A program made the translations under genes and the position numbers. Shown piece after piece: positions 4,068-24,314 of a stretch of DNA of 28,086 nt (positions within the stretch are counted from its first letter, which is position 1; each line of letters begins with the position of its first letter). The stretch is taken from positions 1-28,086 of IMG/VR virus record IMGVR_UViG_3300023702_000391; one strand, given 5' to 3'. The notes beneath the pieces were generated by a model that saw only the letters and a program-made list of their open reading frames with translations, did not search any database and had not been told where the DNA came from. This stretch comes from a virus.

Positions 4068-4073
4068 AAGTAA

Positions 4074-7000: not shown

Positions 7001-10000
7001 CTATAATCAGCGTTCTAAGATTACTGAATCAATGGTAAAACAATATGTAGATATTGTTGAGGCAAATGAACTAATAAATCAGTTAGGTAAGATAGGTGTT
7101 TATGCAGCTACAGGGGAAACACAAATGTTTTTACAAACAGGTAATGCTGCATTCTTACAAACCTTTTATGATGATAATGGTAGAGTACAGCCAGAAGTGC
7201 ATACAATATTATATAAGCAAATTCAAGATTATTTAACGGATTATAAAGAGACAAGAGCAGAGCAAGATAAAAAAGACAACCCACAAACCGAAGAGGAAAT
7301 TGCAATTGAAGAAAGTGAAGAAACAAGGTCTTCACTTGATTTACTTTTAGAAAAGTCAGGTATAGACATAAAGATTAATGCAAGCACTAATAGCCCTTTA
7401 TTAGTTAAAGCATTAGAAAGAAGTTATAAAAGCTATAGAGCAAAACAAGCAAGATTAGGTTTGCCTATTTTAGATAGTACTAACTGGATGAGTTCTGCAG
7501 AAGCTATAAATATTAGAAATGTTATTAATGCAATTAAAAAAGTATGGGCATCAGGGCAATCTGAAATTGGTGTAGAAGGAATTCTTGAATTTAATAATCC
7601 ATTAGAATCAGATGTAATAAAAGGTGATATTGGATTTGAAGAGTTTTTACTTGACTCTGAAGTATTAATTAATAATCCAATTATAACATCTATATTAAAC
7701 CAATCAGGAGTTGATATGGCTGATATAGTTGAGAGTCCAGATGTAAAATTAGAAGAAGGTCAAGCTCTAGAAAACACACCACAAATAAAATTCTATAAGG
7801 CGGGTGTTATTGCCGACGTATATAAAATATCTGTAGTAGAGAAAGACACCGAAGAAATTGTAGAGAACTACAAGTTTTTAGATAAAAAAGGCAATGAACT
7901 TTCAAAAGATATTATTGAGTTTTTAGATACTAACTTTGGCTCTATTCTAGCATCTTTCAACGCAAATGAAGTTAAAAAAGTTACAAATGCTTTAGATGCC
8001 TTAAATAAGAACCTTGTAGATTCATCAACATCTTTTGATTTTGATGGAGTATCAGGATTAACATATGGTCAGGTTATATATAAAGACGGTATAAAATATA
8101 TTATTGTTCAAGATCCACTCTCTTCTAAAAAGTACGGTGAGAATCAAAAACTTAAAATAATTAAAGAGTCTGATAATATAGGCCCTATTGCAGAAAGAAA
8201 GGTTTTGTTTATATCACAAGGAGAGTTCAAAGATAAGTTTACTTTAGAGGAAACTACATTTAATTTAATACCAGATTCTGTTACTAAGATTCAAATACAA
8301 GATCTTACTACTTTATATCCACATGTAAATTACACTGAGGGAAGTACGGAGTCTGATAACGTTAATGCAAAAGAAAGATATAATGCTATTCTTAGCATGT
8401 TAACAGCAAAAGAAATAGAAGGCTTACAATTAGTTGTTACTCTTGATTCACAAGGTGGGACTAATACTGGATCATATGCAGTTAAAAATAGAGCTGGAAA
8501 AGTATATAAAGAAGGCAACCCATTAATAGATAGATTACGTAGTAAATACATAGTTGGTATAAGAATACAATCTCCAGAATTAGCTGCATCAATTAATGAA
8601 AGGCTAGAAGAGATGGGTATTGAACCATCTAATAGTCCAGAAGGTGTCTTTGCATATTTGAATAATGAATCTTTTTTAATTAGAGATCAACGTACAGGTA
8701 ACCCTATAGATCCTAGATCTATGACTAGAGAACAAGCAAGTAATGTTATTCTTGCTCAGAAAAACTTAAATGCAGAACAAAAACAACAGGCACTTGAGCG
8801 TGTACATAATGCGTTTGCATTAAACGCACTTGTAGTTCAAACGTTTGACAATTTAAATATAGATGAAGATGTAACTTACATTATGGCAAATTCAAAAGAT
8901 TTACCTTTTGGATTAAATTTAACTCCAGGAGGAGGACAAGTTGCATATGCCAAATCTAGAGAAAGAGTTTATCCTTTATCTATGGATGAATTACAGTATA
9001 GTACTGCAGATCAGGAAGGCAATCTATTTGTATTTGATTTAAAATATGATAGAAAAACAGGTAGGAGAATTTATGACTTTAGTACAAATTTAAAAGGTGA
9101 AGAAAGAAACTCTCTAGAAAATGCAATAGAAGCACAGCTTAAAAAGCAAGATCAATGGGATAATTTATTAAAAGCTGGTAAGGGAACGGATAGATATCTA
9201 GCTATGGTTAGACTGCCCAATGGTACATACGTAAAGGTAAATTTAACACCTAGAAAATTAACAAAAGAAGATTTAGAAGGTGAAGTAGTTAAAAATAAAA
9301 AAACAGGAGAAGCAGAACTTGTAACAACAGGTATATATAGAGATATAGTAGAAGCAGCCAGAAGAATAGGCAATATAAAAGATCAAGAAAAAGGGATAGA
9401 GGAAGCTGATAAATTTAATAAAGAGTTATCAGAAAAGTTATTTTTAAGTAGTTTTCCCGGCAATCTTATAGAGATAAATGTATCACCAAGTGGTACTATT
9501 TATATTTCTTTTGATAATAAAGATGCTAATATAAGTTTGGATATTGGTTTAACTACAGAAGAGGTTAATGTAACAGATAAATCTGCTAAAGATCTAATTG
9601 ATGATTTAGTTGCGAAATTTAATCTTAATGCTGATGTAGAAAAATATAATGCAACTTTAGAAGTTAAAAACTTTAGAGCATCTTTTGCAAAAAATGTATC
9701 ACCTCAAGAAATATATGATAATACTACTACAGAAGTATTAAAACAAGTAGTAAGAAAACAAACTGTAGAAATTTCAGCTAGTTCAGATGCTTTACAACTA
9801 TCACGTGATATAGCTTTTATTCCTAATACAGATAAAAGCAATGAGCTAGAAATAGAATCTGCACTAGGTAGAGATAAACCTACAGCAGCAGAAGCAGAAT
9901 ATTCTGTATCAGATATGGAAGAATCTGAGTTTGAAGAAATGATTGATGAGAATAATTTTGGAGATTATAAAGAAAATATTGAGCATGTTGTAAATGCAAT

Positions 10001-13000
10001 ACTTAGAGGTATAGAGTTAAGTTCACGTGAAAAACAATTAATGAAGAATGATGTCTTCAGCCAATCAGTTATTTTACAAGTTACAAAGCAAGGGGGTCCA
10101 GGTTCATTAGCTATTGAAAAAAATAAAAAGACAACAAAGCTTGATGCTGTTAAAGCTGAGCTAGAATCTCTCAGAGTAAAGTTAGAAGAAGGCCTGACTA
10201 ATAAGAGGGATAAAGCATTAGCTATTATGAATAGCAAGGAGTATCAAGATCTATTAGCTAAAAGAAAAAAAATAGAAAGAGGTGCTAATAAGTTAGTGCA
10301 AGCATCTTCTGAAGCAGAGCGCATTGATGATTACAATGAATTTTTAGATTGGGCAAGCGATAATTTACCAGATATAATTGGTATAGAAGATCTAATAACT
10401 CTTGCTGATAATGGTATTTCAAAAGGATATGAAAGGGTTGGTTCTTTTGTTTTAAACTTAGATAGAATAGCAAATGGTGTTGATGTAAATGGTACTATAT
10501 ATACTAGCCCATTAAGTCCATATAAATATCATGAAGCTTTCCATAGTATCTTTAGAACTGTCCTTACTCAAGAACAGATTGATAGATATAGAAGGATTGC
10601 TAAACCAGAAGTAAAAGCTAAGTATGGGTCTAAATACAAAACAGAATTAGAAAAGTTTAGAAATTCTGCTCAGCAATATCAAGATATGTCTGATATTGAA
10701 CTGGAAAATGAGTTTATTGAAGAGTATATGGCTGATGAGTTTGAGGCATTTAAAAAGAATCCAAGAAGCTCTAAAACAAATACAGAAATAAAATCATTCT
10801 TTACTAAATTAATAGAATGGATTAAAGGTGTACTCTCTAAGTATTCTTCTATGGAGTTACTTACATTATATGAAAACATAGACGCTGGTAAATTTAAAAA
10901 TGCACCTATCCAACTTAATGAGTTTACTCAACTTGAAAATTCTTTAGGTGGATCAATTAGTGTTGCTAATGCACTAGTTAGATATGATACTGCTTCTAAA
11001 GTAGTAGAAAAAGGAGAGCCTGTGGGACAACTATATGTTGATTCAGATGTAATAGATCCGTTAATTAGGTCTATGGCTGGTATGTTTATAAATAGAGTAA
11101 AAGAACTTTCTCTAACTGGAGATGACTATAGTTCTTCTGATATTTATGATGATCTTTCACTTGACTTTATTGTAATGCTTGATCCAGATGGAGAAGCAAA
11201 TAAAGGTTTTTCTGGAGTTAAAAAAGAATATCTTAAACAACTGAATGATGCATTTACAAATTATCCAGAGGATATTAAAAAAGAAGTTTTTAATTTGATT
11301 AATATAATTTCTGGCATGGATCAGGCTAATCAATTAAAAATAGAAAATATTGAAGATGCATCGGGTATAAGAACTACAAGTGACTTTAATAAAGCTGTGT
11401 CTGAAATAGGCGGCTTCAATTCTTTATCATACAAAGTAAGATCATATATAGCAACTACAACTATGGTTGGTACTGATTTCTTTGGTAAAACAGAGTTAAC
11501 AGAAGGAGAGCCTTTAATTGTACCGGTTAAGTTTAATGAAGCCTATACGGCATTGCTTAAATCAGTTTCAAATGAAAGTAATGCTGCTATAATGCTTAAG
11601 AGAATGTACTCATACTCTAGATTAAATCCACAAGGTAAAGCGGTAGTAGATAAACTATTTAATGACACAGGTTTAACAATAGAAGCCTTAACTTCTTCTG
11701 AACCTTTTAAAGATGTTACGGATGGTTCTTTGTTAATTTCAATACTAAAAGGATTTGAAAACTATAAGGTTGATTACTTATTTAATGAAAGAGATTCTGA
11801 TGGTAACTTATTAGTATATACCGCATCTGAAAGAGATGATATTAATGCTCAGTTAGATGAATGGTCTCAAGCATATATAACAAAAAGAAAACTTGCTGTA
11901 GCTAATCCAGAAAAAGTAAAAAACTTTCTAAGATTAACAAAGGATATGAAAGAAGTTATGACATCATATCCAGAAGATACATCTATGGTATATCAAAAGT
12001 CTAGAGAATTTTCTGAACGAATGTTTGATTTAATAGGTATTAGATTAAGTCCTAATTATATTGCTTATAGTATTGCTAAAGTTAAAACAGAAGAAGATTT
12101 AGCAGATAGCCCTGAGCTAAAAGCATTAAAAGACGGATATACAGATGAATCAATTACAGATGAATTACTAGATCAACTATATGAAGGTTTAAGTACAAAC
12201 AGTGATATATTTTCTACTAAGGAAGATGGAATGGCATCAAGACTTACTAAATTAAGTCTTGCAAATGCTAAGATGGATGAAACTATTGGTGCATCTACAT
12301 TTGTAAATCCTAATGGTGATATAGTATATGGGCATCAGTTACCTACGTTCCATTTAAAAACAATGGCTGCTCTTAATAATCAAGCAAAAATAAATGAGTT
12401 GCTCAATGACGAATTCTTATCAAATAACTATTTGCTTAAGAATGAAGCGTTTTTAAATTTATCTAGAGAAAATAGATTGAAGATAATTAGAGTTGCCGGT
12501 AGTAAAATTAAAGAAAAAATTACTGCTGCTGATAATGATCAAATAACTGAAGATTTATTAAATGAATCTATATCAGGAAATAAAGCTACTCAAAGCTTTG
12601 GTGAATTTACCGCACAAGAGTTTGCTATATCTCTTATAAATAATTACACGTCAAACTTTAATAGAAGAACAGGTGTAGTTGAAACAGTAAATGGTAAAGA
12701 TGAACAGAAAGTTGCATTGTCCCCTGTATTTTTAAGAGTAATGGAAGCCGCTAATACAGGAGACTTGGCTTCTTTACCTGTAATAAAAGCAGTTACAAAT
12801 AAGAATGGTAATATTGTTCTTACAGCAGAAGCCGTAAATACTTTTGTAAATAGTATAGAAGCTGAGTTTAATAGAATTAGTGCAGAGCTATTAGCATTTG
12901 AAACTGAACCAGGCAACATTGAAGGTTTTAATAATGAGAAAAGTAATAGAGCAGATAAGGGTAGAGCTTTTAAATTTACTAACAATGATCTTTTACTTTC

Positions 13001-16000
13001 TGAAACAACTAAAAAAGCACTGATAGAAGTTGCTACAGAAAAAGCTAAACTAGGTGAAACTGTTTCTCTTAAAGAAGCTATATTATTGGCGACTGGAGTA
13101 ACAAGCTCATCTATGAGAGCTGAACTTAATGATAGTTTGGAAAATAGCTTTAAAGATTTTATGGATTTACTTACATCTTTAAATGTAAAGAATAATCTAT
13201 CTACACAAGTATTAAAAGGATTAGACGCTTCTAATAGTGGTTCAAAACCTAATGTTAACTTATCTATGTTAAAGTTAAACCTCACAACTGACAGCACTTA
13301 TAATTTAAAACAAATATTTTTTAATAACTATATTAACTCAAAAGCATTAAATGATTTATTTCTTGGTGATCAAGCTATAAGTCTAAAGAGTATGGTTGAT
13401 AAAGTTAAAAGAGCTAAGTTGCAAAATGCAGCATACTATAGTGCATATAGTGAAATCATTGATCCTAGCAAAGGTATAACACATGCTAGTACTAATTTTG
13501 ATTTATATCCGTTTCAAGATCCAATAGCTAAATCTGATTTTACAGGTAATGATATAGAGCTGGCTGATGCACAAGTTTACATTACTACAAAAGGTATACG
13601 TTATTCAACATTTGGATTTGGAAGATTAAGTCCTGCAATGGCAGCAATGCTAGATACTATTGATAAAGGAGATACTATAAGTGCTGATAGAGCATGGGGT
13701 TCTAAAGAAGGTTCAATTAACTTATCAAAGCAGCAAGACTTTATAAATTCTAAAAAGTTTGTATACATGGATGGTAAGACAGCTTTAAAAATGTCTGTTA
13801 CTGTACTAACTAAAGAGTATACATCTAAATATAATAAAGACACTGGCATATGGGAAGCTAAACCTAATATGAAGCAGCTCCATTATTTACGTGAGCAAAT
13901 GGAAGCCAATGAAGAAGTAAATCAAAACTTTGCTATGGCAGCACCTACTTCAGCTATGAAAATGTTGAAGCAAGGAGTTAACTCACTTACATCAAATCAA
14001 TTTGATATAACTGATGATTTAAATTCTATTAATTTAGATACTTCATATCTTGGTCTACAAGTTATAAATCCTTCTAATAAAACTGTAATAACTGACCTGA
14101 ATCAAATAAAGGAGCTTATAACTTCTGAACAAGATGATAATGTTAAAGTATTTATAAAAGGGAGTCCAGAGTTAGATACTGTAGGAAAAGTAAAAGAAGC
14201 ATATAATAAAGCAGTTAGCGAAAGAGTAATTTTAAAGTACAAAAACAAAAGAAATTTAGTTTTTAGTTTTGATACAGCACTTGATGAATTTGAACTATCA
14301 AAAGAAAAAGGTTCAATAACACCTAACCTTGCAGCATTTTTATTAGAAGCACAACAAGGCCTTATGGCTTCAGGTGCAACTTCAAATTTACTTGAGTTTT
14401 TTGCTGTTGAAGATGGAGTTCAAAAATATAATTTGAATAGTCCTGTGACTGCTAAAAAGTTTGAGCAGCTTTTCTTAACATACTTTAGTAAAGGTACACT
14501 AAGAGAAAAAGTACCTGGTACTTCAGTTGCATTACTGTCTTCATTTGGTCATAAGGTTTATAGACGTGTGTATGAAATGGAAAATGGTATGCCTAGTAGA
14601 TCTGAAATTGTAAGAGAAAGCGCTTATAATGGGGAAGGTTTAGAAGATATAAATAATCTTATTGATGGTAAATACGATGGTGTTCTTGTTCTTGATGTTT
14701 TAAGAACGGGTGTTATGGAATATAAAAATGATGATGTTGTAAATGGTGAGCCTACAGGAATAAGGTATAGTGAAAGTATTATGCCTGCTATGGATAAAAA
14801 TATAATGGAGTTAATTCAAGAAAACCCAAATGCTTCAATACCACCTGTAATAGCTAAAATGTTTGGGGTACGTATACCTACACAGGATAAGCATTCTGCA
14901 ATAAATATAAGAATTGTTGATTTTATGCCTGTGTATTACGGTTCTACTGCAATATTTCCTAAAGAACTTGTAGAAATATCAGGAGCGGATTTTGATATTG
15001 ATAAAGTATATGCGTTAACAAAAGAATACTACTTAGATGGTAATAAAAACTTTAGAACATATGGTAATGGAGATGGAAACTCTTATTTTGAGTATGTCAA
15101 GTACATGAACTTAAAATCATCTGAACCCAATAACATATTTAGTAAAGCATCTTCTTTATATAAAGATAAAACTCTTGCTATAAGAAGAAGTAATGCTTTA
15201 ACTGAAGAAGAAAAAAATATAGTTACTGATGATAAAGCTGTAAACAAGATTAGTGAAGAAGCTCTTAGAGCAATGTTGATATTAGGTTTACCTGTTACTA
15301 AAGCGCAATTTAAATCATACGTTGAAAAACACGGATCACCAAATGAAGCAGTATTAAATAATAATATTTTAGACTATAGATATACTTTAGCCGGCAACAC
15401 TGGTGTAACAGGTAAAACATTAAAGTCTATTGATCAGGATAATGGAGAAGGTAAATCTGATTTGCCTATAGCTTATCAAGCAGCTGATTTAAAAATGCTA
15501 GAAGATTTATTTGATGAGCTTTCTGAAATTGAGGGTATAGAATTATTTGCAAGTAGAAAAGATTCTGATGTAGATGTTGATACGCTACACGGTATGGTAA
15601 GAGCTTTTGAAGCAAATAAAGGTGCTGCAATTGGTGCCATTGTAAAACCTAATGTAGCTTTAAGTTTATTACGTGAATATAAAATTAAATTAAAGAGACC
15701 TATAAAATTTGATGGTAATGAATATGATGGATTTACTAAAAGTAAAATAAATGGAGAAAGAATACAAGATATTATTTCTACTTTAGTTACAATGGAGACT
15801 GATAATGCTAAAGAGCGTTTGATAGCTAAATTTGGCCTTAATAAACATGCTGTTGGTTTAGTTGGTAATATGGTTTCTTTGGGAATTCCACTAAGAACTT
15901 CAATTTTATTAGTAAACTCTGCTGAAATAAGGGAGTTATATAATCTAGCTTTATATAAAAAAAATAAGTATGATGCAAGCTTAGAAACACTTTTATCTCA

Positions 16001-18470
16001 ACGTATAAATTCAACAGCTTCATTAGTTGCTAAAGAAAAAAAGAGCGGTAATAAAATACCATTTGTAAAACTATCAGATAAATTTTTAGAGACAGCCGTA
16101 GATAGCACACAAGATTTAACAAATAATGAAAAACTTCAAATATTATTTTTATTTAATAGGCTTAATAAGATTAACAAATTTACAGTTGAGATAAATAATG
16201 TAACAAGTCTTACGCAAGGTCTTCCTCAGTCTATACCTGAGATGAAAAATTCTATTGAAAAGATTACTAGTTTATTTGATGAGAGTGCACCTGTAAATGT
16301 TAGATCTATTTATGGTAAAAAAAGTAAAACTTGGCAGAGTACTTATCTAAAAATATTTGGTCAAATACATAATGATCTTTTGCCTAATACTATTTTAACT
16401 ATGAGTAAAGACTTTAATGATATATTAAAGCCTACTTATAGTCAAATGGACACTAATAAGAAGTCGTTTGATAATGATGTAAGAAATGGTATTGAGCAAG
16501 ATTTATTGTCTTACTTAACAATTAAGTCATATCAACACCTTCTTAATAATAGCTCTGGTAATTCTTCTGTAGAAAATACACTGCTTTATCCTGGTGTTGT
16601 TGGTGTAACAGACCTGTCTTTAGTTAAAAGGATAGAAGACTTACGTACAGATAGAGCTATTAAAGGTAAAGAGTATAACTATTTTTTAGATAGCTTTGTA
16701 GGCACACAATATGCAGGTGCTGAGGGTAATAATACAGGAATGAATATAGTAAAAGCAGATACATGGAGAAGATTAAATGAGGCTAATAAGCTTGATCTTC
16801 AAACATCATTTGCAAAACTATATGGTTCTCTTGAGACAAGAGAAATAGCAGAGGATATTTTGCACTATATGATGATAAAGGATGGGTTACAACTTAAGTA
16901 TGGAAGTCTTATGAGTGCAATGAGTCCTTTTATAATGAATAAATATCTTAAGAATGTTGGTTCTGTAGAGGCTGCACTTAAAGGACAAGTAGAATTTGAA
17001 AGTGTCTTTGGTATCTCTAAAGAAGAAGTGATGAAAGATTTTAAATATGGATACTTACAATCTAATATTGTAGGACCATTGCTTTTTACTTATGACGCTT
17101 CTATTCTTGATGAAGGTTTTACTTTTGACCCGGTTTCTAGACCTAATAAATTTAATATTACTTCTGAAATTTTTGATCATGTAAATGCAAAAGAACTTAT
17201 AAGAGTTAAGGTAGACAAAGGACGAGGAGAAGAATATGTATTATTTAGAATTCTTGCTAAAGAAGATCCTTATTCAGCTGTAACTGTATACTCTGAAGTT
17301 CCATCAATGGGATCTAATCAACAGTTTGGTGGTGGCTTTGTAGGTGGACCTAGACTTACATATAATCAAGTAAGAATGATAGGTAAAGGAACTACACAAA
17401 ATAGTTTACCTAAAGAAAGAACCGCACAAGGAACACAACCAGCATCACAAACTAGTGAGGTTGGGGTAGAAGTTACTAATGAAAAGTATTCCAGAAACTC
17501 GTTAGATAATGATTCAAGCAGTATGTATTTATTTACAGACAATGCTGAAAGAACGTCAAGACCAACCGCATCTTCTCCTAATATTACTGAAGGGTGGTAT
17601 GCAGAAAAATATAAAGATAAAACTAATAAACCTTTACATTATGGTAGTACTAGTAATCCTACCAGTGCTGTTATAAGAGGTAAAAATAATGCTTACCCTA
17701 TTTCTACAATGAGTGCTTATGGCACTAACTGGACTAATGAAAATTTTGATTTATTTAAAGATACCATTGATGATGAGATAGCTCAAATTAAACAAGATTT
17801 ATCTAAATTTAAAACTCTTAAATTGGGTGACTTTAGAATAGGTCAAGGAGGCAGATTTGCTAAATTACCTTCTCAGCACCAATCTTATTTAGACTTTAAA
17901 TTACTAGAATTAGGCATTGACAATTCAGGTAACAGTCCTAAAGTAATTAAACCAACACAACAAACTAGTGAGGTTGAGTATCCTGTTGATACCAACCCTG
18001 CAGCTATACAAGATGTAAATGAAGTATTAAATTCTCCATCAGCAATAGTAAATCAAACTACAGACTCTGTAACAGTCAAAGCGGATGTAGATGCAGCAGA
18101 AACAAATATAGCTGACATGGCACAAATAATGGCTGAGTTGTCTAAGAACTCAGATAGTCTTATCTTTGATGAAAGCGGTAATGCTATCATAGAAGATACA
18201 GATATGAGCATACCAGAAGCAACAGAGGCACAACAACAAGAGCGAGAACAACTAGAACTTGATCTTTTTTCTTCAGAGGAAATTTCAGAAGCTCCAAGTC
18301 TATCAGAATGGTGGGATGCAAATGTTGAAGGTAATAGTGCTGCTTTAGAAAAGCTTTCTGGAGAAAATATAAAAACACTTGACGATGCAATAGCTTTATA
18401 TGGTGATTTATTTTCACAAACAGAACAAGGAGAACAAGATATAATTGAAAGACTTAAATGTCTCATATAA
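4074..18470 (+). CDS. Giant polyprotein with virion RNA polymerase core
   Basis: A 4798-aa multidomain protein and the main marker of this phage group. In order: (1) residues ~220-600, hydrophobic Gly/Ala-rich stretches typical of ejected virion proteins; (2) ~600-2080, mostly charged helical sequence of unknown role, with a coiled coil near 2020-2080; (3) a zinc-metalloprotease-like domain, H2153-E-A-F-H2157, with a downstream E2216/E2217 region; (4) an RNA polymerase core ~3150-3960, with R3600-I-P-T and D3639-F-D-I-D3643, the DxDxD magnesium-binding loop of the crAss-like/YonO/eukaryotic RDR polymerase clan; (5) a small domain ~4470-4620 set between two Gln-Thr-Ser-Glu-Val linkers. The characterised relative, gp66 of Cellulophaga phage phi14:2, is about 2200 aa and is injected with the DNA to transcribe early genes. 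This chain is about twice as long, so it looks like a polymerase fused to cargo and protease modules. No in-frame TAG or TGA interrupts it. Confidence 0.88.
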   Translation: MENGSNKPLAQEIKNQERPAPSIIPEGQFRFEPIAEMFETPDTKFNDYLMSSSLAADDFSGVNQYKTDIDRYGIDAMASLGVAIPSFATDTYNPVSQNVPDRKLNAGSIIDRLSDLESKPFYEKRLSPIFSGMRQNQFLRYYNHPEFDKLGYSPYSNMENYYNANSTIWDDFSRMGGQWMSLAGTGLNSVYGSMFSGGDYFQPDTESATEFEDIMGIGSSTRGGVGGFINNLAANSAYTGGILASIAIEELILAGGAALSGGTLTGAAMAKTAANAARGVKSLFSFTKLFDRTRKILEKAKQIDTARDFYNASVTGGKMVVNTLGKGFTPNTVKAFQNMKTAQNAGQNMSNLAKMGTGFGGFYRDIRAVNLAMAESKLESGMVYNKVMQQGLTDANNFSGGQGITDGRDVANAANQAAFKTMLANAPLIYASNWFVIGNALGGFQRGIQRSLGSTFQSGVNKNIINTAGKKVINGAGEVIKNPFKYIGPGFKSTVAKVKAGGVAGLAGSGGMAMLNYFAANVAEGIQEIGQEAISAATTGYYTEILNNPAQGGEALKNQMILSAMGDQFSSQGAGTFLSGFLMGGLVSGPQKLFFQGVPSIYKFGLQEAGIGLASKSQKEAYSEYKTNRETMINKVVDSYNKSWNSQAVDPSSLFDLNRLNFMVQKELAENIKSGLEIFGHVDNADRAKFQQYYTMFAGNGSYHFKNQLRGFLELSDAELSQAFPGVSNKDKKDGKLRGRINDMLVGIDKMEESYNKNKDKYKNPFDRSKFNPKTQQRQYVDEMLNEEAYEHVRYLYMFTNDGFTRALERADGIYSKLQSDPLFDKMSANDITSLLDEKSIQNEIDMLNLEVIATKGATQGIGESNKTKREKIKRLQAIQKIISDPQNRFKNGTFKRNKLLKGKLRNEFRNYVRFMASTEGTFADESKIDAALEQIVDYGALKGRARVYDKAIQYMQNPEKFSEIQQRAYEVNKEIYNQRSKITESMVKQYVDIVEANELINQLGKIGVYAATGETQMFLQTGNAAFLQTFYDDNGRVQPEVHTILYKQIQDYLTDYKETRAEQDKKDNPQTEEEIAIEESEETRSSLDLLLEKSGIDIKINASTNSPLLVKALERSYKSYRAKQARLGLPILDSTNWMSSAEAINIRNVINAIKKVWASGQSEIGVEGILEFNNPLESDVIKGDIGFEEFLLDSEVLINNPIITSILNQSGVDMADIVESPDVKLEEGQALENTPQIKFYKAGVIADVYKISVVEKDTEEIVENYKFLDKKGNELSKDIIEFLDTNFGSILASFNANEVKKVTNALDALNKNLVDSSTSFDFDGVSGLTYGQVIYKDGIKYIIVQDPLSSKKYGENQKLKIIKESDNIGPIAERKVLFISQGEFKDKFTLEETTFNLIPDSVTKIQIQDLTTLYPHVNYTEGSTESDNVNAKERYNAILSMLTAKEIEGLQLVVTLDSQGGTNTGSYAVKNRAGKVYKEGNPLIDRLRSKYIVGIRIQSPELAASINERLEEMGIEPSNSPEGVFAYLNNESFLIRDQRTGNPIDPRSMTREQASNVILAQKNLNAEQKQQALERVHNAFALNALVVQTFDNLNIDEDVTYIMANSKDLPFGLNLTPGGGQVAYAKSRERVYPLSMDELQYSTADQEGNLFVFDLKYDRKTGRRIYDFSTNLKGEERNSLENAIEAQLKKQDQWDNLLKAGKGTDRYLAMVRLPNGTYVKVNLTPRKLTKEDLEGEVVKNKKTGEAELVTTGIYRDIVEAARRIGNIKDQEKGIEEADKFNKELSEKLFLSSFPGNLIEINVSPSGTIYISFDNKDANISLDIGLTTEEVNVTDKSAKDLIDDLVAKFNLNADVEKYNATLEVKNFRASFAKNVSPQEIYDNTTTEVLKQVVRKQTVEISASSDALQLSRDIAFIPNTDKSNELEIESALGRDKPTAAEAEYSVSDMEESEFEEMIDENNFGDYKENIEHVVNAILRGIELSSREKQLMKNDVFSQSVILQVTKQGGPGSLAIEKNKKTTKLDAVKAELESLRVKLEEGLTNKRDKALAIMNSKEYQDLLAKRKKIERGANKLVQASSEAERIDDYNEFLDWASDNLPDIIGIEDLITLADNGISKGYERVGSFVLNLDRIANGVDVNGTIYTSPLSPYKYHEAFHSIFRTVLTQEQIDRYRRIAKPEVKAKYGSKYKTELEKFRNSAQQYQDMSDIELENEFIEEYMADEFEAFKKNPRSSKTNTEIKSFFTKLIEWIKGVLSKYSSMELLTLYENIDAGKFKNAPIQLNEFTQLENSLGGSISVANALVRYDTASKVVEKGEPVGQLYVDSDVIDPLIRSMAGMFINRVKELSLTGDDYSSSDIYDDLSLDFIVMLDPDGEANKGFSGVKKEYLKQLNDAFTNYPEDIKKEVFNLINIISGMDQANQLKIENIEDASGIRTTSDFNKAVSEIGGFNSLSYKVRSYIATTTMVGTDFFGKTELTEGEPLIVPVKFNEAYTALLKSVSNESNAAIMLKRMYSYSRLNPQGKAVVDKLFNDTGLTIEALTSSEPFKDVTDGSLLISILKGFENYKVDYLFNERDSDGNLLVYTASERDDINAQLDEWSQAYITKRKLAVANPEKVKNFLRLTKDMKEVMTSYPEDTSMVYQKSREFSERMFDLIGIRLSPNYIAYSIAKVKTEEDLADSPELKALKDGYTDESITDELLDQLYEGLSTNSDIFSTKEDGMASRLTKLSLANAKMDETIGASTFVNPNGDIVYGHQLPTFHLKTMAALNNQAKINELLNDEFLSNNYLLKNEAFLNLSRENRLKIIRVAGSKIKEKITAADNDQITEDLLNESISGNKATQSFGEFTAQEFAISLINNYTSNFNRRTGVVETVNGKDEQKVALSPVFLRVMEAANTGDLASLPVIKAVTNKNGNIVLTAEAVNTFVNSIEAEFNRISAELLAFETEPGNIEGFNNEKSNRADKGRAFKFTNNDLLLSETTKKALIEVATEKAKLGETVSLKEAILLATGVTSSSMRAELNDSLENSFKDFMDLLTSLNVKNNLSTQVLKGLDASNSGSKPNVNLSMLKLNLTTDSTYNLKQIFFNNYINSKALNDLFLGDQAISLKSMVDKVKRAKLQNAAYYSAYSEIIDPSKGITHASTNFDLYPFQDPIAKSDFTGNDIELADAQVYITTKGIRYSTFGFGRLSPAMAAMLDTIDKGDTISADRAWGSKEGSINLSKQQDFINSKKFVYMDGKTALKMSVTVLTKEYTSKYNKDTGIWEAKPNMKQLHYLREQMEANEEVNQNFAMAAPTSAMKMLKQGVNSLTSNQFDITDDLNSINLDTSYLGLQVINPSNKTVITDLNQIKELITSEQDDNVKVFIKGSPELDTVGKVKEAYNKAVSERVILKYKNKRNLVFSFDTALDEFELSKEKGSITPNLAAFLLEAQQGLMASGATSNLLEFFAVEDGVQKYNLNSPVTAKKFEQLFLTYFSKGTLREKVPGTSVALLSSFGHKVYRRVYEMENGMPSRSEIVRESAYNGEGLEDINNLIDGKYDGVLVLDVLRTGVMEYKNDDVVNGEPTGIRYSESIMPAMDKNIMELIQENPNASIPPVIAKMFGVRIPTQDKHSAINIRIVDFMPVYYGSTAIFPKELVEISGADFDIDKVYALTKEYYLDGNKNFRTYGNGDGNSYFEYVKYMNLKSSEPNNIFSKASSLYKDKTLAIRRSNALTEEEKNIVTDDKAVNKISEEALRAMLILGLPVTKAQFKSYVEKHGSPNEAVLNNNILDYRYTLAGNTGVTGKTLKSIDQDNGEGKSDLPIAYQAADLKMLEDLFDELSEIEGIELFASRKDSDVDVDTLHGMVRAFEANKGAAIGAIVKPNVALSLLREYKIKLKRPIKFDGNEYDGFTKSKINGERIQDIISTLVTMETDNAKERLIAKFGLNKHAVGLVGNMVSLGIPLRTSILLVNSAEIRELYNLALYKKNKYDASLETLLSQRINSTASLVAKEKKSGNKIPFVKLSDKFLETAVDSTQDLTNNEKLQILFLFNRLNKINKFTVEINNVTSLTQGLPQSIPEMKNSIEKITSLFDESAPVNVRSIYGKKSKTWQSTYLKIFGQIHNDLLPNTILTMSKDFNDILKPTYSQMDTNKKSFDNDVRNGIEQDLLSYLTIKSYQHLLNNSSGNSSVENTLLYPGVVGVTDLSLVKRIEDLRTDRAIKGKEYNYFLDSFVGTQYAGAEGNNTGMNIVKADTWRRLNEANKLDLQTSFAKLYGSLETREIAEDILHYMMIKDGLQLKYGSLMSAMSPFIMNKYLKNVGSVEAALKGQVEFESVFGISKEEVMKDFKYGYLQSNIVGPLLFTYDASILDEGFTFDPVSRPNKFNITSEIFDHVNAKELIRVKVDKGRGEEYVLFRILAKEDPYSAVTVYSEVPSMGSNQQFGGGFVGGPRLTYNQVRMIGKGTTQNSLPKERTAQGTQPASQTSEVGVEVTNEKYSRNSLDNDSSSMYLFTDNAERTSRPTASSPNITEGWYAEKYKDKTNKPLHYGSTSNPTSAVIRGKNNAYPISTMSAYGTNWTNENFDLFKDTIDDEIAQIKQDLSKFKTLKLGDFRIGQGGRFAKLPSQHQSYLDFKLLELGIDNSGNSPKVIKPTQQTSEVEYPVDTNPAAIQDVNEVLNSPSAIVNQTTDSVTVKADVDAAETNIADMAQIMAELSKNSDSLIFDESGNAIIEDTDMSIPEATEAQQQEREQLELDLFSSEEISEAPSLSEWWDANVEGNSAALEKLSGENIKTLDDAIALYGDLFSQTEQGEQDIIERLKCLI
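4740..5870 (+). other. Hydrophobic ejection-type N-terminal region of the polyprotein
   Basis: Residues ~222-600 hold several Gly/Ala-rich apolar segments: ~233-277 (reading G-I-L-A-S-I-A-I-E-E-L-I-L-A-G-G-A-A-L), ~500-520, and ~574-592 (F-L-S-G-F-L-M-G-G-L-V-S-G). Between them lie helical stretches, including E-G-I-Q-E-I-G-Q-E-A-I near residue 525. The rest of the chain is hydrophilic, so this region is the likely membrane- or tail-passing part. That role is inferred from composition and from known ejection proteins. No enzymatic motif is visible. Confidence 0.5.
10330..10920 (+). other. Zincin-like metalloprotease domain (HExxH) in polyprotein
   Basis: Residues ~2087-2282. H2153-E2154-A-F-H2157 is an intact HExxH zinc-binding helix, preceded by a strand-like stretch (V-N-G-T-I-Y-T-S-P) and the K-Y lead-in. 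About 60 residues on comes E-F-I-E-E-Y-M-A-D-E-F, where E2216 or E2217 is the probable third zinc ligand. An amphipathic helix (F-F-T-K-L-I-E-W-I-K-G) follows. This order of HExxH, an E-x-x-A-D-E helix and a K-x-I-E-W-hydrophobic helix fits metallopeptidase-like domains in large phage polyvalent proteins. Maturation of the polyprotein is a plausible role, but no cleavage site is visible. Confidence 0.7.
13500..15950 (+). other. RNA polymerase catalytic core (two double-psi barrels)
   Basis: Residues ~3143-3959. The beta'-type barrel runs from V-P-G-T-S-V-A at 3480 through R3600-I-P-T, then D-F-M-P, to G-A-D3639-F-D3641-I-D3643-K-V-Y. The order and spacing parallel NRAPT to NADFDGD in bacterial beta'. 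A candidate beta-type barrel lies at ~3170-3300: I3170-T-T-K, then D3233-G-K-T-A-L-K3239-M and A3290-P-T-S-A-M-K3296-M, which offer conserved-looking lysines. Downstream, a Gly/Ala-rich N-K-G-A-A-I-G segment at ~3848 and T-D3910-N-A-K-E may correspond to bridge-helix or trigger-loop elements. The beta' barrel is well supported; the other assignments are tentative. Confidence 0.85.
17437..17463 (+). repeat. Linker direct repeat, left copy
   Basis: A 27-base unit matching 17950-17976 at 24 positions, with a perfect 17-base core (acaaactagtgaggttg at 17447-17463). Both copies are in the same reading frame, 513 bases apart, and encode P-A-S-Q-T-S-E-V here and P-T-Q-Q-T-S-E-V in the other copy. 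Confidence 0.85.
17464..17949 (+). other. C-terminal small domain between duplicated linkers
   Basis: Residues ~4464-4625. The stretch reads Y-L-F-T-D-N at 4485-4490, then A-V-I-R-G-K-N-N-A-Y-P-I-S-T-M, a helix F-K-D-T-I-D-D-E-I-A-Q-I, then G4590-Q-G-G-R-F-A-K-L-P. This order resembles a small alpha/beta domain found as stand-alone proteins and fused to giant proteins in phages. In those I recall a F-G-D-N-like strand, an I-R-G-x-x-N-A helix and a G-x-G-x-A-x-L-P loop, which would suit nucleotide or nucleoside binding. That recollection is not a verified family assignment. The domain sits between two nearly identical linkers, suggesting a mobile module. Confidence 0.5.
17950..17976 (+). repeat. 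Linker direct repeat, right copy
   Basis: Second copy of the 27-base linker unit, with the perfect 17-base core at 17960-17976. It follows the small domain and precedes an acidic, Gln-rich tail of about 160 residues that ends the polyprotein. Confidence 0.85.
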
Positions 18471-18485
18471 TTAAACAATAATCAA

Positions 18486-21400
18486 ATGGCTAAATGTTAC
18501 AATAGAAATGATCCAGGATACCAAGCATTGAAAGATGAGTTTGGAACTAATCTTAGAACATCTAAGATTATCAATGACTGGCAACGTGTTAATGATTCTG
18601 ATGTGTTTCCTAGTGTTGTCCAAGCTCAGACAATGGTTAAGGATCAAAACATTGCATTTTCACTAAAGACTAAAGCTTTTGGTGAAAGTGTTCTTGACAA
18701 TTTAAGAAGAGAAAGAATAGGAAGTAATTTAGCTGGTCAGTTTTTAATTAATAATTCTAATCCTAATACTCAATCATATGATGAAGCCTTTTTAGAAAGT
18801 AATCTAAAAAGATTTTACAGATATTTAGACATTAATAATATACCAAGAGAATCCTTCTCTGTAACAAGAACACCGAAGAGTTATAGAATAGAAGCTAATA
18901 ATGATATATTTTCAGCCAGAGATATACTAGAAAAATCAAGGTCTTGGGATACTAACAGATCCAGAGCTGTGGTTATGCATCTTAAGAGAATGTTTCCGCA
19001 GGTACAAGTTAAAATGCTGTCTGTTGCTCAAGCTAAAGTAATGTATGAATCATTACCAAAAACTAAAACCAACAACGTTGCTTTCAATGAAGTAAATTCT
19101 TTTTATATGGATGGTGTAGCTTATCTAATAAAAGGTAGAGTTACAGATGAAATAGCTATTGAAGAAATGTTGCATCCTTTTATAGATGCAATAAAGATGG
19201 ATAATGAGGAATTGTTTAATTCACTGCTTGATGAAGCAGTAAATAACTTTCCTGTACTATCACAGCAAATTGAAGATGCTTACAATAATAGTACAAGAAA
19301 CTTCAGCGATACTGAAATAAATATTGAAATTGTAACACAAGCATTGTCAAGACATTTCAAAAAAGAATATGAGACAACACCAACAAAAAACTTTTTAGCA
19401 AAAGTTAAAGAGGTTATTGAATGGTTTAAAGGTGTAATAGAAAACTTAAATCAATATATCACTGGAAGAGATCTTCCTGTATCTGCTATTAAACCAAGTA
19501 CAACACTTAGTGATGTAGCTAAACTTCTTAATACAGAAGGTATTCAGTTTAAACTAGAAAAAAGAGTGGATGGTAAACTTAGATATAGTTTATCTCCAGC
19601 TAAATTAATACAAATTAAAGATGCATTAGAAAGAGCTAATGATACACAGAAGCCTATTATAATGCAGTTGTTTAATGTAGCACTGGCTGAGAACTCAGGT
19701 ATGATTGACTCTCTCTCAGCATCAGTAAAAAATGCAGCTGCAGGAGATTCTATTGTAACACTTAATAAAGAGGATCACACATACATAAACTCTAATGATT
19801 CTGAAAAGGTATATACATCAGTAACTACTGCTATAAAGGGAAAGATGGACCCAAATCAGCAAATTGCACATAAAATTAATTTGGATATTGGTAATGAAGT
19901 TGATACATTATTAGATGGGGTTATTGCAAATCTTTCTTTTGAAGATTCATATGCTGCATTAGAAACAAGCAATATATCTAAAGAAGGGGCTAAAAAAGTT
20001 TTTGAATCTTTACAGGACGTTCTTGAAAATAAAATACCGGCTGAACTAAAAAATGGTTCAATTATACTATCTCAAGTTGTTTTATTTGATGAAGCATCTA
20101 AGATTGCTGGTACTGCAGACATATTTATTATAGATAAACATGGTAAGATAAGTATCATGGATTTAAAAACTTCAAAAAATGAACTTAGCAAACTAAAACC
20201 ACTTAATGATCTAAAATCAAAACGTATAGGAAATCAATACAGAGAACAAGTTTATTCTTTAGGAAAAGATAGTAAGTTGGTGGATCAATATGATAAAAAA
20301 GGTGTTCTGATAAAAAAAGGATTAATTCAAGAACTCACTACAGAGGTACAACACAACTTACAAGTAAACCTATACAAAAGGATGGCTGAAAATATGGGGT
20401 ATGAAGTATCCTATGATGAATGGGCTACATCTACAGTACATTTTAAGGTTGGTATAACAGGTACAGGAACAGAACAAGTATTTGATGGTTCAGTAGAATT
20501 TGATGGTTGGTACCCTCATCCGGTAGGTGAAAACATACCTTATGTAAATGCGATTGTACCAGAAGCAATAAACTCATATCAAAAAAGTAAACTTGAACAA
20601 GATCAAGAAGGTACATATAATAAAATATGGAATGGTAAGGATCAAAAAGATGAGACAACTGAAGAAGATAAAAAAGCAGCAGAAAATTATGAGGAATACA
20701 GTACTGCAGCAGGTGTATTAAGTAAATATCAGGAAGCATTAATTCAAAAAAGAGATATGATTCCTTTGTTAAAGTCCAATATATATATGGAATCAACAAA
20801 AGAAAATGAGATTGATCAAATATCTAAGACAATAGCTTATATAAATTTAGCTATGGCTAGTGATGATAAAAGTATATCAATAGCGTTATCTGAGGTATTA
20901 CAGGATGCATTAGCACAAGTAAAAGACTTTAGGTCTTATGTTGAAAATCCAAAAAATATTAATTCACCAGAGTATGTTTCTTATGTTTTAAATTTTGATA
21001 AGTACATGAAGACATTTGAGGGTCTGTTTATACTTAAAGATTTAAAAGGATTAAACAAGACTCAAAAGAACTTAATACTTTCATTACAACAACAACTTAA
21101 TTTACTTAGTGGTGCTGGTACTGACACAGGAGGAATAGTAGGTACTGCATTGAAAGACTATGTAAAAGAAATAGTCAGGTTAAAATCAAGCAATGATTAT
21201 GGCGGTAAAAATAGTTTATTTACTGAGAAAGACTTAGAACTTTTAATGGAAAAAGCTGCAGATATTAGTGATGCGCAGTATTTAGTTGATGACATAGCAA
21301 CATCTGGAGATGTTTTATTATCTGTAATGGATAAAATAAGAAAAGCTCAAAATCAAAAACTATTAGATCTTGTTGGTCAAAGAGAAACAGTTATTAGAGC

Positions 21401-24314
21401 TGCAGGTCAAAAGCTTGCAAAATTATCTCCAGAATTAAAGCTTGATGAGCTTTATAAGTTTATGTTAGAATATGATGCTGACGGTACTTTCAACGGAAGG
21501 TATGTAACAATAATAGGTGAGCAATACTGGGCTATACAAAATGAACTTAGAAGTAAGTTATATGATAATGAAGGTACACCCTATCAATATAGAGATGTAT
21601 TTGATTTAGAAACTGCAAGTCAAGAAGATATAGATTACAATATAAATCTAGCTGCAAATAAACAAGCATACGGAGACTTCTATATAGCAGAAGAAAAAAG
21701 AGAGGATGGATCATTACGTCCATCTGGAATGTATCATAAGTATACTCAAGAGTTTATAGATGCTAGAAATAAACATGAAGTATGGATGCCCGGTTCTGAA
21801 AGTAATAAACGGGGTATCTGGGTACATAATAAAAGTGCTGTATCAGATGCTGAGTATGCAGTATTTGTTGCAAGATATTATGAACCAATAGAATATACTA
21901 AAGCTGTTAGAATTAATGGTGTAGTAACAGGACAGATTATACGAGATCGTCAAGGTATGATGGTTCCTAAAGTAGAGTTTAGAGAAGTATTATTAACTAC
22001 ACTTGATGGACGCAACATGAAAAATCCAAAATATGACGCTATAATGAGTGGTACAGATGCAAAGTCTGTAGCTGAAAGAGAGTTTTATAATTTGTATATT
22101 AAAATGTATGAAAAAGAATTATTAAATAAAATTCCTATTGGTCAAAGAGCAAATATGCTTGGTAGAGTTCCTTTAGTACAGAATAAATTGATGAATGAAA
22201 TTAAAGATAAGGGTACTATATTTACTAAGTTATACGCTAGTATGACTGAAAGTAAAGTCTGGAATATGTTTCAGCAAACATCAACTCAAAAAAATGTTAT
22301 ATTAGATAATCAAGGTTATATAATAGATCAAGTACCTGTATATTATACAGGTAGACCTAGGTTAGATAATGATATTGCTGATCTTCAAAAAGAAATAGAT
22401 CTTTTAAAATCAAGGTATAAAAAGAATGATATTCAAGATCAGAGATATAATAAAGAAATAGCGTTACTAAATGGTAAAATGGTAAGGTTAAGAGCAACAC
22501 CAAGTAGAGGTCAAGTTAGTACAGACATGGCGTCTAGTTTACTTAAGTTTAGTGCTATGGCGCAGAACTATGAAACAATGGGTGCTGTAGATGATACGTT
22601 AAAAGCTTTTGTAAAAGTAATAGAGCAAAGAACTTATACTCCTGCTCCTGGGTTAAGACTAAATCTAAAGGCAAAAATAAAAGATAAAGTTGCTGAAAAT
22701 CTAGGAACTAAAGCAAATACAAGTACACAAGAAAAAAATGTAGTACGTAGAGCTAAGAAGTTTATGTCTATGATTCATTATGACAATGAAAATATCACAC
22801 AAGGCGCTTGGGATAAAATTGCAGGTGGTATTATGCAAATGTCTTCTTTATCATATGTAGCATTTAATCCATTTGGTAACTTTAATAATTACTTGATTGG
22901 TAGGATTAACAACAATATTGAATCTATAGGTGGTAGATTTTATTCTCAAAGTGCTTTTAAAAGAGCAACTTGGGAATATAATAAAAGAGCAATACCATCA
23001 TTAGTTTATAGAACTGCACATGGTGGTGCAGAAGATTTTATTGACGTAGCAACATTTGGTATAATACCTGGGTTAGCTAAAGCTGACTATAATAAAAAAT
23101 TACCTAACAGCAAGTACGAGGCATTTGTAGATATGTTCAGAATGATGGATAGCATGTCTGATATACGTGAACAAAGTTCAGATACGAAAGATGGTAAAAG
23201 TTGGTTTGATAGAGCAACTGAGTGGGGTTATATAATGCAGGATGCTGCTGAGTATAATTCTCAAACTAAAGTAGGTATGGCTATACTTATGGATACCTAT
23301 CTTAAGAATACCAAAACAGGTGCGCAGTTATCATTTTATGATGCATTTGAATATGATGCAAAAACAAATAAGAATAAAATTAAAGATGGCTTTGATAAAT
23401 TAATCAAAAAAAATGGACAAGAAGTACCTTATACTGATGATGTTAGATATGAAATGAGAAATGAGATTAGAGAGGTAAATAAACAAATACATGGTAATTA
23501 TTCTAAAGAAGATAGAATTGTTCTTCAGTCAAGTACACTTGGTTCTTTAGCGCTTCAATTTAAAAAATGGTTAGTTCCAGCAATTAAGGCAAGATATCAA
23601 AGGGAATACTTTGATCAAAATTTAGGATGGATGGAAGGCAGATATAAATCTGCATTTTCATTTATAAGTTATGTTAAAAAAGAACTTGCTCAAGGTAACA
23701 TAAACTTTAGAACAATGGGTAAAGGATATCTTAATCAACAAGTTAATGAGTATACTAGAGAAAAGTTTGGAGAAGAAGGAGTAAGAGATTATGGTAAAGG
23801 TGGTAATATAGATCAAAGAGCAAAGAATAGATTATTTGGTTTTTATAGAACTATGGGTGACTTGGGTATTATGCTTAGTACTATGCTTATTTCTTTGGCA
23901 TTTGATGATATACTATCTGGAGATGATGATGATAGTGATACTGAAAAGAGATTTAAGAATTTAACTAGATATCAAGCAGATAGAGTATATAAAGAACTTG
24001 TGTTATTTATGCCTTCTTTTGCAGGATTTAAACAAGTTGAACAAATGTTTAACTCTCCTGTTGCCGCATCAAGATCAGTAAATGAGATGTCTGAGGCTTT
24101 TGAAATGGTTTTCCTTGGTGGTTTTATATATACAATGGCAAAAGTAACTGGAAAAGAAGAAGCATTTTATGCTAACTCTAATTATGTATATCAAAAAGGT
24201 AAAAGAAAAGGAGAACTAAAGGTATATAAAAACATTAAAGACGTTTTCCCAATACTATATTCTATTCAAAAATGGGATTCATACCTTAAGAATTCAGACT
24301 TTTATATTAAATAA
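18486..24314 (+). CDS. Second giant virion-type protein with nuclease domain
   Basis: A 1942-aa protein starting 15 bases after the polyprotein stop, in an A-rich leader. Residues ~1-160 form an N-terminal domain with no motif I can name. Residues ~165-330 carry a degenerate metalloprotease-like fold, E226-E227-M-L-H230-P-F, then I-E281-I-V-T-Q-A-L and a V-I-E-W-F-K-G-V-I helix. Residues ~440-660 are a RecB/Cas4-like PD-(D/E)XK nuclease domain with D545 and D559-L-K561. The long C-terminal part (~700-1942) is helical with K/E-rich coils, a possible membrane or buried helix (L-G-I-M-L-S-T-M-L-I-S-L-A near 1800) followed by a D-D-D-D patch, and no further motif. crAss-like phages typically have two or three giant genes side by side whose products travel with the virion polymerase, and this fits that position. 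Whether it contacts the polymerase is inference. Confidence 0.75.
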   Translation: MAKCYNRNDPGYQALKDEFGTNLRTSKIINDWQRVNDSDVFPSVVQAQTMVKDQNIAFSLKTKAFGESVLDNLRRERIGSNLAGQFLINNSNPNTQSYDEAFLESNLKRFYRYLDINNIPRESFSVTRTPKSYRIEANNDIFSARDILEKSRSWDTNRSRAVVMHLKRMFPQVQVKMLSVAQAKVMYESLPKTKTNNVAFNEVNSFYMDGVAYLIKGRVTDEIAIEEMLHPFIDAIKMDNEELFNSLLDEAVNNFPVLSQQIEDAYNNSTRNFSDTEINIEIVTQALSRHFKKEYETTPTKNFLAKVKEVIEWFKGVIENLNQYITGRDLPVSAIKPSTTLSDVAKLLNTEGIQFKLEKRVDGKLRYSLSPAKLIQIKDALERANDTQKPIIMQLFNVALAENSGMIDSLSASVKNAAAGDSIVTLNKEDHTYINSNDSEKVYTSVTTAIKGKMDPNQQIAHKINLDIGNEVDTLLDGVIANLSFEDSYAALETSNISKEGAKKVFESLQDVLENKIPAELKNGSIILSQVVLFDEASKIAGTADIFIIDKHGKISIMDLKTSKNELSKLKPLNDLKSKRIGNQYREQVYSLGKDSKLVDQYDKKGVLIKKGLIQELTTEVQHNLQVNLYKRMAENMGYEVSYDEWATSTVHFKVGITGTGTEQVFDGSVEFDGWYPHPVGENIPYVNAIVPEAINSYQKSKLEQDQEGTYNKIWNGKDQKDETTEEDKKAAENYEEYSTAAGVLSKYQEALIQKRDMIPLLKSNIYMESTKENEIDQISKTIAYINLAMASDDKSISIALSEVLQDALAQVKDFRSYVENPKNINSPEYVSYVLNFDKYMKTFEGLFILKDLKGLNKTQKNLILSLQQQLNLLSGAGTDTGGIVGTALKDYVKEIVRLKSSNDYGGKNSLFTEKDLELLMEKAADISDAQYLVDDIATSGDVLLSVMDKIRKAQNQKLLDLVGQRETVIRAAGQKLAKLSPELKLDELYKFMLEYDADGTFNGRYVTIIGEQYWAIQNELRSKLYDNEGTPYQYRDVFDLETASQEDIDYNINLAANKQAYGDFYIAEEKREDGSLRPSGMYHKYTQEFIDARNKHEVWMPGSESNKRGIWVHNKSAVSDAEYAVFVARYYEPIEYTKAVRINGVVTGQIIRDRQGMMVPKVEFREVLLTTLDGRNMKNPKYDAIMSGTDAKSVAEREFYNLYIKMYEKELLNKIPIGQRANMLGRVPLVQNKLMNEIKDKGTIFTKLYASMTESKVWNMFQQTSTQKNVILDNQGYIIDQVPVYYTGRPRLDNDIADLQKEIDLLKSRYKKNDIQDQRYNKEIALLNGKMVRLRATPSRGQVSTDMASSLLKFSAMAQNYETMGAVDDTLKAFVKVIEQRTYTPAPGLRLNLKAKIKDKVAENLGTKANTSTQEKNVVRRAKKFMSMIHYDNENITQGAWDKIAGGIMQMSSLSYVAFNPFGNFNNYLIGRINNNIESIGGRFYSQSAFKRATWEYNKRAIPSLVYRTAHGGAEDFIDVATFGIIPGLAKADYNKKLPNSKYEAFVDMFRMMDSMSDIREQSSDTKDGKSWFDRATEWGYIMQDAAEYNSQTKVGMAILMDTYLKNTKTGAQLSFYDAFEYDAKTNKNKIKDGFDKLIKKNGQEVPYTDDVRYEMRNEIREVNKQIHGNYSKEDRIVLQSSTLGSLALQFKKWLVPAIKARYQREYFDQNLGWMEGRYKSAFSFISYVKKELAQGNINFRTMGKGYLNQQVNEYTREKFGEEGVRDYGKGGNIDQRAKNRLFGFYRTMGDLGIMLSTMLISLAFDDILSGDDDDSDTEKRFKNLTRYQADRVYKELVLFMPSFAGFKQVEQMFNSPVAASRSVNEMSEAFEMVFLGGFIYTMAKVTGKEEAFYANSNYVYQKGKRKGELKVYKNIKDVFPILYSIQKWDSYLKNSDFYIK
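18978..19475 (+). other. Degenerate zincin-like domain (EExxH)
   Basis: Residues ~165-330 align by eye with the metalloprotease domain of the polyprotein. E226-E-M-L-H230 sits where H2153-E-A-F-H2157 would be. The following helix I-E281-I-V-T-Q-A-L-S-R-H-F-K-K matches I-E2216-E-Y-M-A-D-E-F-E-A-F-K-K without gaps over 15 residues. Both domains then run into an I-E-W-hydrophobic-K-G amphipathic helix. The first zinc-binding His is Glu, so normal zinc catalysis is unlikely. The domain may be structural or regulatory. Confidence 0.6.
19750..20480 (+). other. PD-(D/E)XK (RecB/Cas4-like) nuclease domain
   Basis: Residues ~422-665. The motifs fall in the order expected for the RecB nuclease superfamily: S445-V-T-T near the start, G469-N-E-V-D473 (the usual G-x-x-x-H helix, with Asp in place of His), then A-G542-T-A-D545 followed by I-S-I-M-D559-L-K561-T-S-K, and finally Q-Y-R-E-Q-V-Y and Q-V-N-L-Y-K-R helices with a G-Y-E-V strand. 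The catalytic D545, D559 and K561 are all present, so activity is plausible. It is fused inside a virion-type protein rather than encoded alone. Confidence 0.8.

Follow-up and report, generated by a model that had tools for sequence, protein, structure and literature searches.

A 4798-residue reading frame from a largely marine crAss-like lineage joins a putative zincin-bearing module to a predicted gp66-type RNA polymerase

Genes of the locus

The window, i.e. the whole 28,086-nucleotide stretch analysed here (IMG/VR virus record IMGVR_UViG_3300023702_000391), contains an uninterrupted 4798-aa reading frame in which a virion-type RNA polymerase core had been predicted between positions 13500 and 15950, corresponding to aa 3143-3960 (Table 1). 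Scans of this ORF against Pfam, PHROGs and NCBIfam yielded nothing useful, and nucleotide searches of phage records revealed no homologous match. In hhalign comparisons, the front part of the ORF (module A), its rear part (module B) and a separate ORF downstream (module C) each aligned with the matching module of known crAss-like phages, and non-matching modules mostly remained below 4%.

Table 1. Positions of the genes and features of the locus in the window
Feature	Position	Strand	Basis or remark
1136-aa ORF before the fusion	657..4067	+	Present in 12/12 larger relatives searched; position where crAss-like phages keep cargo proteins C1/C2
Fused ORF, modules A and B	4074..18470	+	4798 aa; A, putative zincin-bearing RNAP-associated virion protein; B, predicted gp66-type RNA polymerase
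Module A, aa 1-2256	4074..10841	+	hhalign 93-97% to A proteins
Zincin motif HEAFH, aa 2153-2157; likely third ligand E2216/E2217	10530..10544	+	Invariant in 45/45 homologues
Linker at the A/B junction, aa 2257-2298	10842..10967	+	Disorder predicted from a block pLDDT of 29-38 in the AlphaFold model covering aa 2020-2920
Module B, predicted gp66-type single-chain RNA polymerase with length-variable C-terminal tail, aa ~2301-4798	10974..18470	+	6VR4 matches of two models
Beta'-type double-psi barrel region, aa ~3477-3650	14502..15023	+	Model aligns from its residue ~567 with the largest subunits of cellular RNAPs
RIPT (aa 3600-3603) to DFDID (aa 3639-3643), putative metal-binding catalytic loop	14871..15002	+	Motif, conservation
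Variable C-terminal tail of B with insert, aa ~4440-4620	17331..18053	+	Insert seen here and, beyond the window, only in two near-identical contigs
Module C, 1942-aa ORF; PD-(D/E)XK-like domain at aa ~463-641	18486..24314	+	crAss001 gp49 / C-terminal part of p-crAssphage gp44

Module C matched crAss001-like gp49 at 99.9% by hhalign (with tblastn E-values in the 1e-22 range), and also the C-terminal part of p-crAssphage gp44. The original prediction had joined delivery, processing and transcription functions in one product; the transcription functions are not all contained in it, as this third module is encoded by an ORF of its own. Further downstream lie genes for a holin and for ribonucleotide reductase subunits. 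On the other side of the fusion, the 1136-aa ORF showed no detectable sequence relation to crAss001 gp45 and gp46 or to the matching genes of other phages.

Two further features of module C were observed. Its PD-(D/E)XK-like nuclease domain (19872-20408 in the window; PDDEXK_1 E 0.01; GTADIFI...IMDLKTSK) is located in module A (residues 1709-1855) in crAss001-like gp47, and is as such a domain that changed proteins. Moreover, an EExxH motif (EEMLH) at aa 226-230 (19161-19175 in the window) is invariant in 42/42 homologues, and the C protein of phi14:2 has HEIMH. EEMLH is possibly a second zincin motif in which glutamate has replaced the first histidine across the clade.

The polymerase core and its fold

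The R3600-I-P-T and D3639-F-D-I-D motifs were indeed located exactly where they had been predicted, with the D3639 codon at base 14988, and the core does fall within the final third of the protein. R3600, P3602 and all three aspartates are invariant among 45 non-redundant homologues (33-85% identity), which served for both conservation analysis and modelling, and the DxDxD loop lies in the beta'-like context of a crAss-like virion RNA polymerase. A second DxDxD string, DVDVD at aa 3830, is outside the RxPT context. Searching with 200 aa around the motif, tblastn retrieved annotated Crassvirales RNAP catalytic subunits at E-values of 1e-14 to 6e-12, far beyond chance. Specifically, the matches comprised cr110_1 (1e-14; annotated as hypothetical), p-crAssphage gp44 (6e-12), crAss001 (6e-12) and, at 2e-3, a phi14:2 protein with DFDID at residues 1361-1365. 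A phmmer search of the giant ORF against PDB sequences gave no match even at E 1, indicating that the relation to gp66 is visible mainly by profile or fold.

The best PDB match of an AlphaFold model of aa 2911-4110 (built with the 45 homologues; pLDDT 82.8, pTM 0.82) was 6VR4, the phi14:2 virion polymerase, both in Foldseek (E 4.5e-30) and by structural alignment, in which VIA-align superposed 6VR4 residues 683-1820 with Z 21.2 over 936 residues at 3.8 Å. Further fold matches were QDE-1 (Z ~17), Thermus phage polymerases (~9-10) and cellular largest subunits (~6). The model aligned to the latter from aa ~3477, in agreement with the double-psi barrel that had been anticipated around aa 3480-3650, and the predicted membership of the phi14:2 gp66 clan of crAss-like virion-type polymerases is likewise supported by the 6VR4 match. 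At the level of the overall fold, this match places both active-site barrels in one predicted chain of gp66-like architecture.

A second AlphaFold model (aa 2020-2920; pLDDT 73) matched 6VR4 residues 95-696 over aa 2318-2920 (Z 8.8, 491 residues; next match 5.8). The models thus place the start of the gp66-type polymerase near aa 2300, directly after the low-confidence stretch at aa 2257-2298, from where it fills the remaining chain except for the variable tail. Length changes are concentrated in the B tail at aa 4381-4740, and the insert within it (~17391-17933 in the window) is weakly similar to DUF7831 (E 0.002).

The phi14:2 gp66 protein (PDB 6VR4; KC821624 gp077, 2180 aa) is also a two-barrel single-chain RNAP, with its DFDID in the same RIPx context. 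However, it is encoded by a free-standing gene, with A (gp078) and C (gp076) separate, and is only ~16-18% identical to the 4798-aa protein. KC821624 gp077 was equated with the published gp66 by its length and fold match, the record's own gp066 being a different protein.

Module A, its zincin motif and the linker

No match was found when aa 1-2642 were compared with phage records by tblastn, and for the N-terminal ~400 aa of module A no relative was detected outside the clade. Using hhalign, aa ~410-723 matched A proteins from three phages, namely Dulem virus 41 and bajarodcaudo virus 1 (93-95%) and Leptolyngbya phage Lbo-JY46 (95%), and aa 2091-2279 matched residues 2103-2295 of crAss001-like gp47 (96.6%) as well as the equivalent region in three giant proteins of Suoliviridae (96% for two, 66% for the third). 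Judged by sequence, module A is the counterpart of crAss001 gp47 and p-crAssphage gp45, i.e. the "RNAP-associated protein fused to zincin" of the p-crAssphage annotation. In the cyanobacterial phage Lbo-JY46 (PP438436.1), both module A (hhalign 95%) and module C (99%) have clear counterparts, so that crAss-type transcription-block proteins occur outside Bacteroidota phages.

The HEAFH motif is situated on a helix before the linker and is followed downstream by E2216/E2217, nearly invariant among the 45 homologues. An HExxH motif with a downstream acidic residue, here likely the third ligand, is the pattern of a zincin metalloprotease, and the end of module A is identified as a putative zincin by motif and profile match. 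The same HEAFH is present in the crAss001-like, Dulem virus 41 and Suoliviridae proteins. A fold comparison of aa 2020-2920 had no zincin structure among its matches, from which the absence of a zincin fold does not follow. The linker behind the motif is ~42 residues long, and the phi14:2 gp66 fold begins just behind it.

Of the ejection-type and protease regions that had been proposed to precede the core, both are supported in part, the protease region by this invariant motif. As for the ejection-type region, the family to which the N-terminal half belongs by homology has a crAss001 virion cargo member (PMC10172136), but module A has just one weak hydrophobic segment (aa 241-259), which is missing from some relatives. 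This segment may be membrane-active, and we retain the reading of the N-terminus as a "TMP-like ejection protein" only as a weak one.

Nature, distribution and lineage of the fusion

In all likelihood, the 4798-aa product consists of two crAss-like transcription-block proteins fused head to tail, with the zincin-ending A joined by a short flexible linker to the gp66-type two-barrel polymerase B. Together, crAss001-like gp47 (2341 aa) and gp50 (2412 aa) amount to 4753 aa, compared with 4798 aa here. Beyond the observed sequence, modules, fold match and conservation of the fusion, a mechanism can be proposed in which D3639, D3641 and D3643 of B would hold the catalytic metal, and the separate downstream C (crAss001 gp49 type) would complete the transcription set. 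Because crAss001 gp47, gp49 and gp50 were all detected in virions by mass spectrometry (PMC10172136), we label the A-B chain as putative virion cargo. By analogy with relatives, the chain would be packaged in the head together with C and ejected partly unfolded, after which B would refold in the host and transcribe early genes without the host polymerase. Most likely the fusion does no more than ensure that A and B are packaged 1:1; their proteolytic separation is possible but not required.

It is also conceivable, if rather unlikely, that A and B remain a single covalent chain for the whole of infection, with the polymerase tethered via A to the entry channel and transcribing early genes during genome entry. 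For the marine lineage, this would be much like the proposal for the tape-measure polymerase of Thermus phage P23-45. The 5002-aa gp96 of that phage is a giant virion protein as well, with a two-barrel vRNAP, a metallopeptidase and membrane regions (PMC10770324; fold match Z 8.8), but its polymerase is N-terminal, clampless and part of a siphovirus tape measure.

Also rather unlikely is a true polyprotein, in which the zincin terminating A would cleave the linker at head maturation or after entry and free a gp66-sized polymerase. The protease is indeed located directly before the predicted disordered linker and the polymerase fold, and the polymerase is a free chain in phi14:2 and crAss001. 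However, phages that encode A as a gene of its own (crAss001-like, p-crAssphage, cr110) equally have the zincin at this place, ~180-210 aa from the C-terminus of A, which argues against an origin of the protease as a means of releasing B or of processing a polyprotein. Moreover, the p-crAssphage polymerase is fused to C, and that chain has no HExxH. The self-processing implied by the original prediction is thus unsupported, and head-to-tail fusion remains the preferred reading.

It is very improbable that the DxDxD protein descends from a polymerase but is now inactive or repurposed and purely structural, given that none of the 45 diverse homologues departs from the three catalytic aspartates, R3600 or the flanking motif and that the two-barrel fold is kept. 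Finally, the idea that two genes were falsely merged into the long ORF during assembly is refuted in practice. Among 80 viral contigs fetched with the core, 75 span both HEAFH and DxDxD; A and B do lie in two ORFs in three of these (two being plain frame changes relative to 96-100% identical intact relatives), but in the other 72 both motifs share one ORF, with a spacing of 1458-1775 aa and down to ~42% identity. The Suoliviridae reference genomes cr55_1, cr60_1 and cr50_1 agree, with an A-B ORF and a separate C.

The joined layout, which had been presented as an oddity, is the same in Suoliviridae and in essentially the whole marine clade and similar in Flavobacterium phage Fpv3, and giant vRNAPs of up to ~6000 aa are described as a hallmark in a review (PMC10136315). 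Neither the length nor the fusion of the 4798-aa ORF is new, and it is an ordinary member of a known crAss-like layout. The Suoliviridae proteins (cr55_1, 4551 aa; cr60_1, 4494 aa; cr50_1, 4774 aa) likewise carry the HEAFH zincin followed by the DxDxD polymerase in the last third, but belong to gut phages on another branch of the core tree, and cr60_1 needs stop-codon recoding. Translated with table 11, its A-B ORF (NC_055891.1) contains 55 in-frame stops, in line with the recoding reported for Suoliviridae. Fpv3 has a 4287-aa ORF with DYDID at 3116; the module-A zincin profile found no match in Fpv3, whose sole HExxH is near the C-terminus, so that Fpv3 is claimed only as a case of a giant ORF whose core occupies the same relative position.

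The same three modules are found in crAss001 (Steigviridae), with HEAFH in gp47, but as three genes, gp49 and gp50 being on the opposite strand to gp47. p-crAssphage (Intestiviridae) likewise has an A with zincin (gp45) and a polymerase (gp44), but the latter is fused to C instead of A; this A / B-C layout is that of Intestiviridae and Crevaviridae, and the three-gene layout that of Steigviridae. Across the group, the way in which A, B and C are distributed over genes thus varies (separate; A / B-C; A-B / C). Because they have repeatedly been fused in different pairs, they very probably act together, and these shifting fusions make A and C candidates as partners of the putatively injected polymerase.

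What is new is the lineage, a deep, mostly unnamed and largely marine crAss-like branch for which the domain boundaries of a giant "hypothetical" ORF of a large group are now settled. In a tree of 31 cores, the window is located in an all-environmental clade with its own branch (support 100/100, length 2.12), outside Steigviridae, Intestiviridae, Suoliviridae and Crevaviridae and a member of none of them. The A-B label, assigned both to this clade and to Suoliviridae/Fpv3, needs three changes on the unrooted core tree. Placement in Crassvirales or their close kin comes from complete, larger relatives with a crAss-type terminase and portal and a transcription block ending the structural genes, the window itself containing neither terminase nor portal. 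Specifically, a 114-kb relative carries TerL (phrog_6681, 1.3e-59) and portal (phrog_6547, 5e-88), and the crAss001 portal was found in 9/12 records. In a single-sequence search, the crAss001 MCP matched 2/12 records.

The label "marine" stems from the IMG/VR sample series, which we take to be mostly marine, and from the match to Virus NIOZ-UU157. Among viral structures, this marine, unclassified virus was the top match, at 36% identity across the core, but it is deposited as pieces of uncharacterised protein, with no polymerase study in the literature searched. A crAss-like polymerase core was also observed in Spirosoma oryzae DSM 28354 (NZ_PVTE01000009.1), in a 3367-aa ORF with DxDxD at 1779. 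Its module layout differs, and the match was left out of host assignment; the core itself is possibly that of a provirus or carried phage in a Bacteroidota host.
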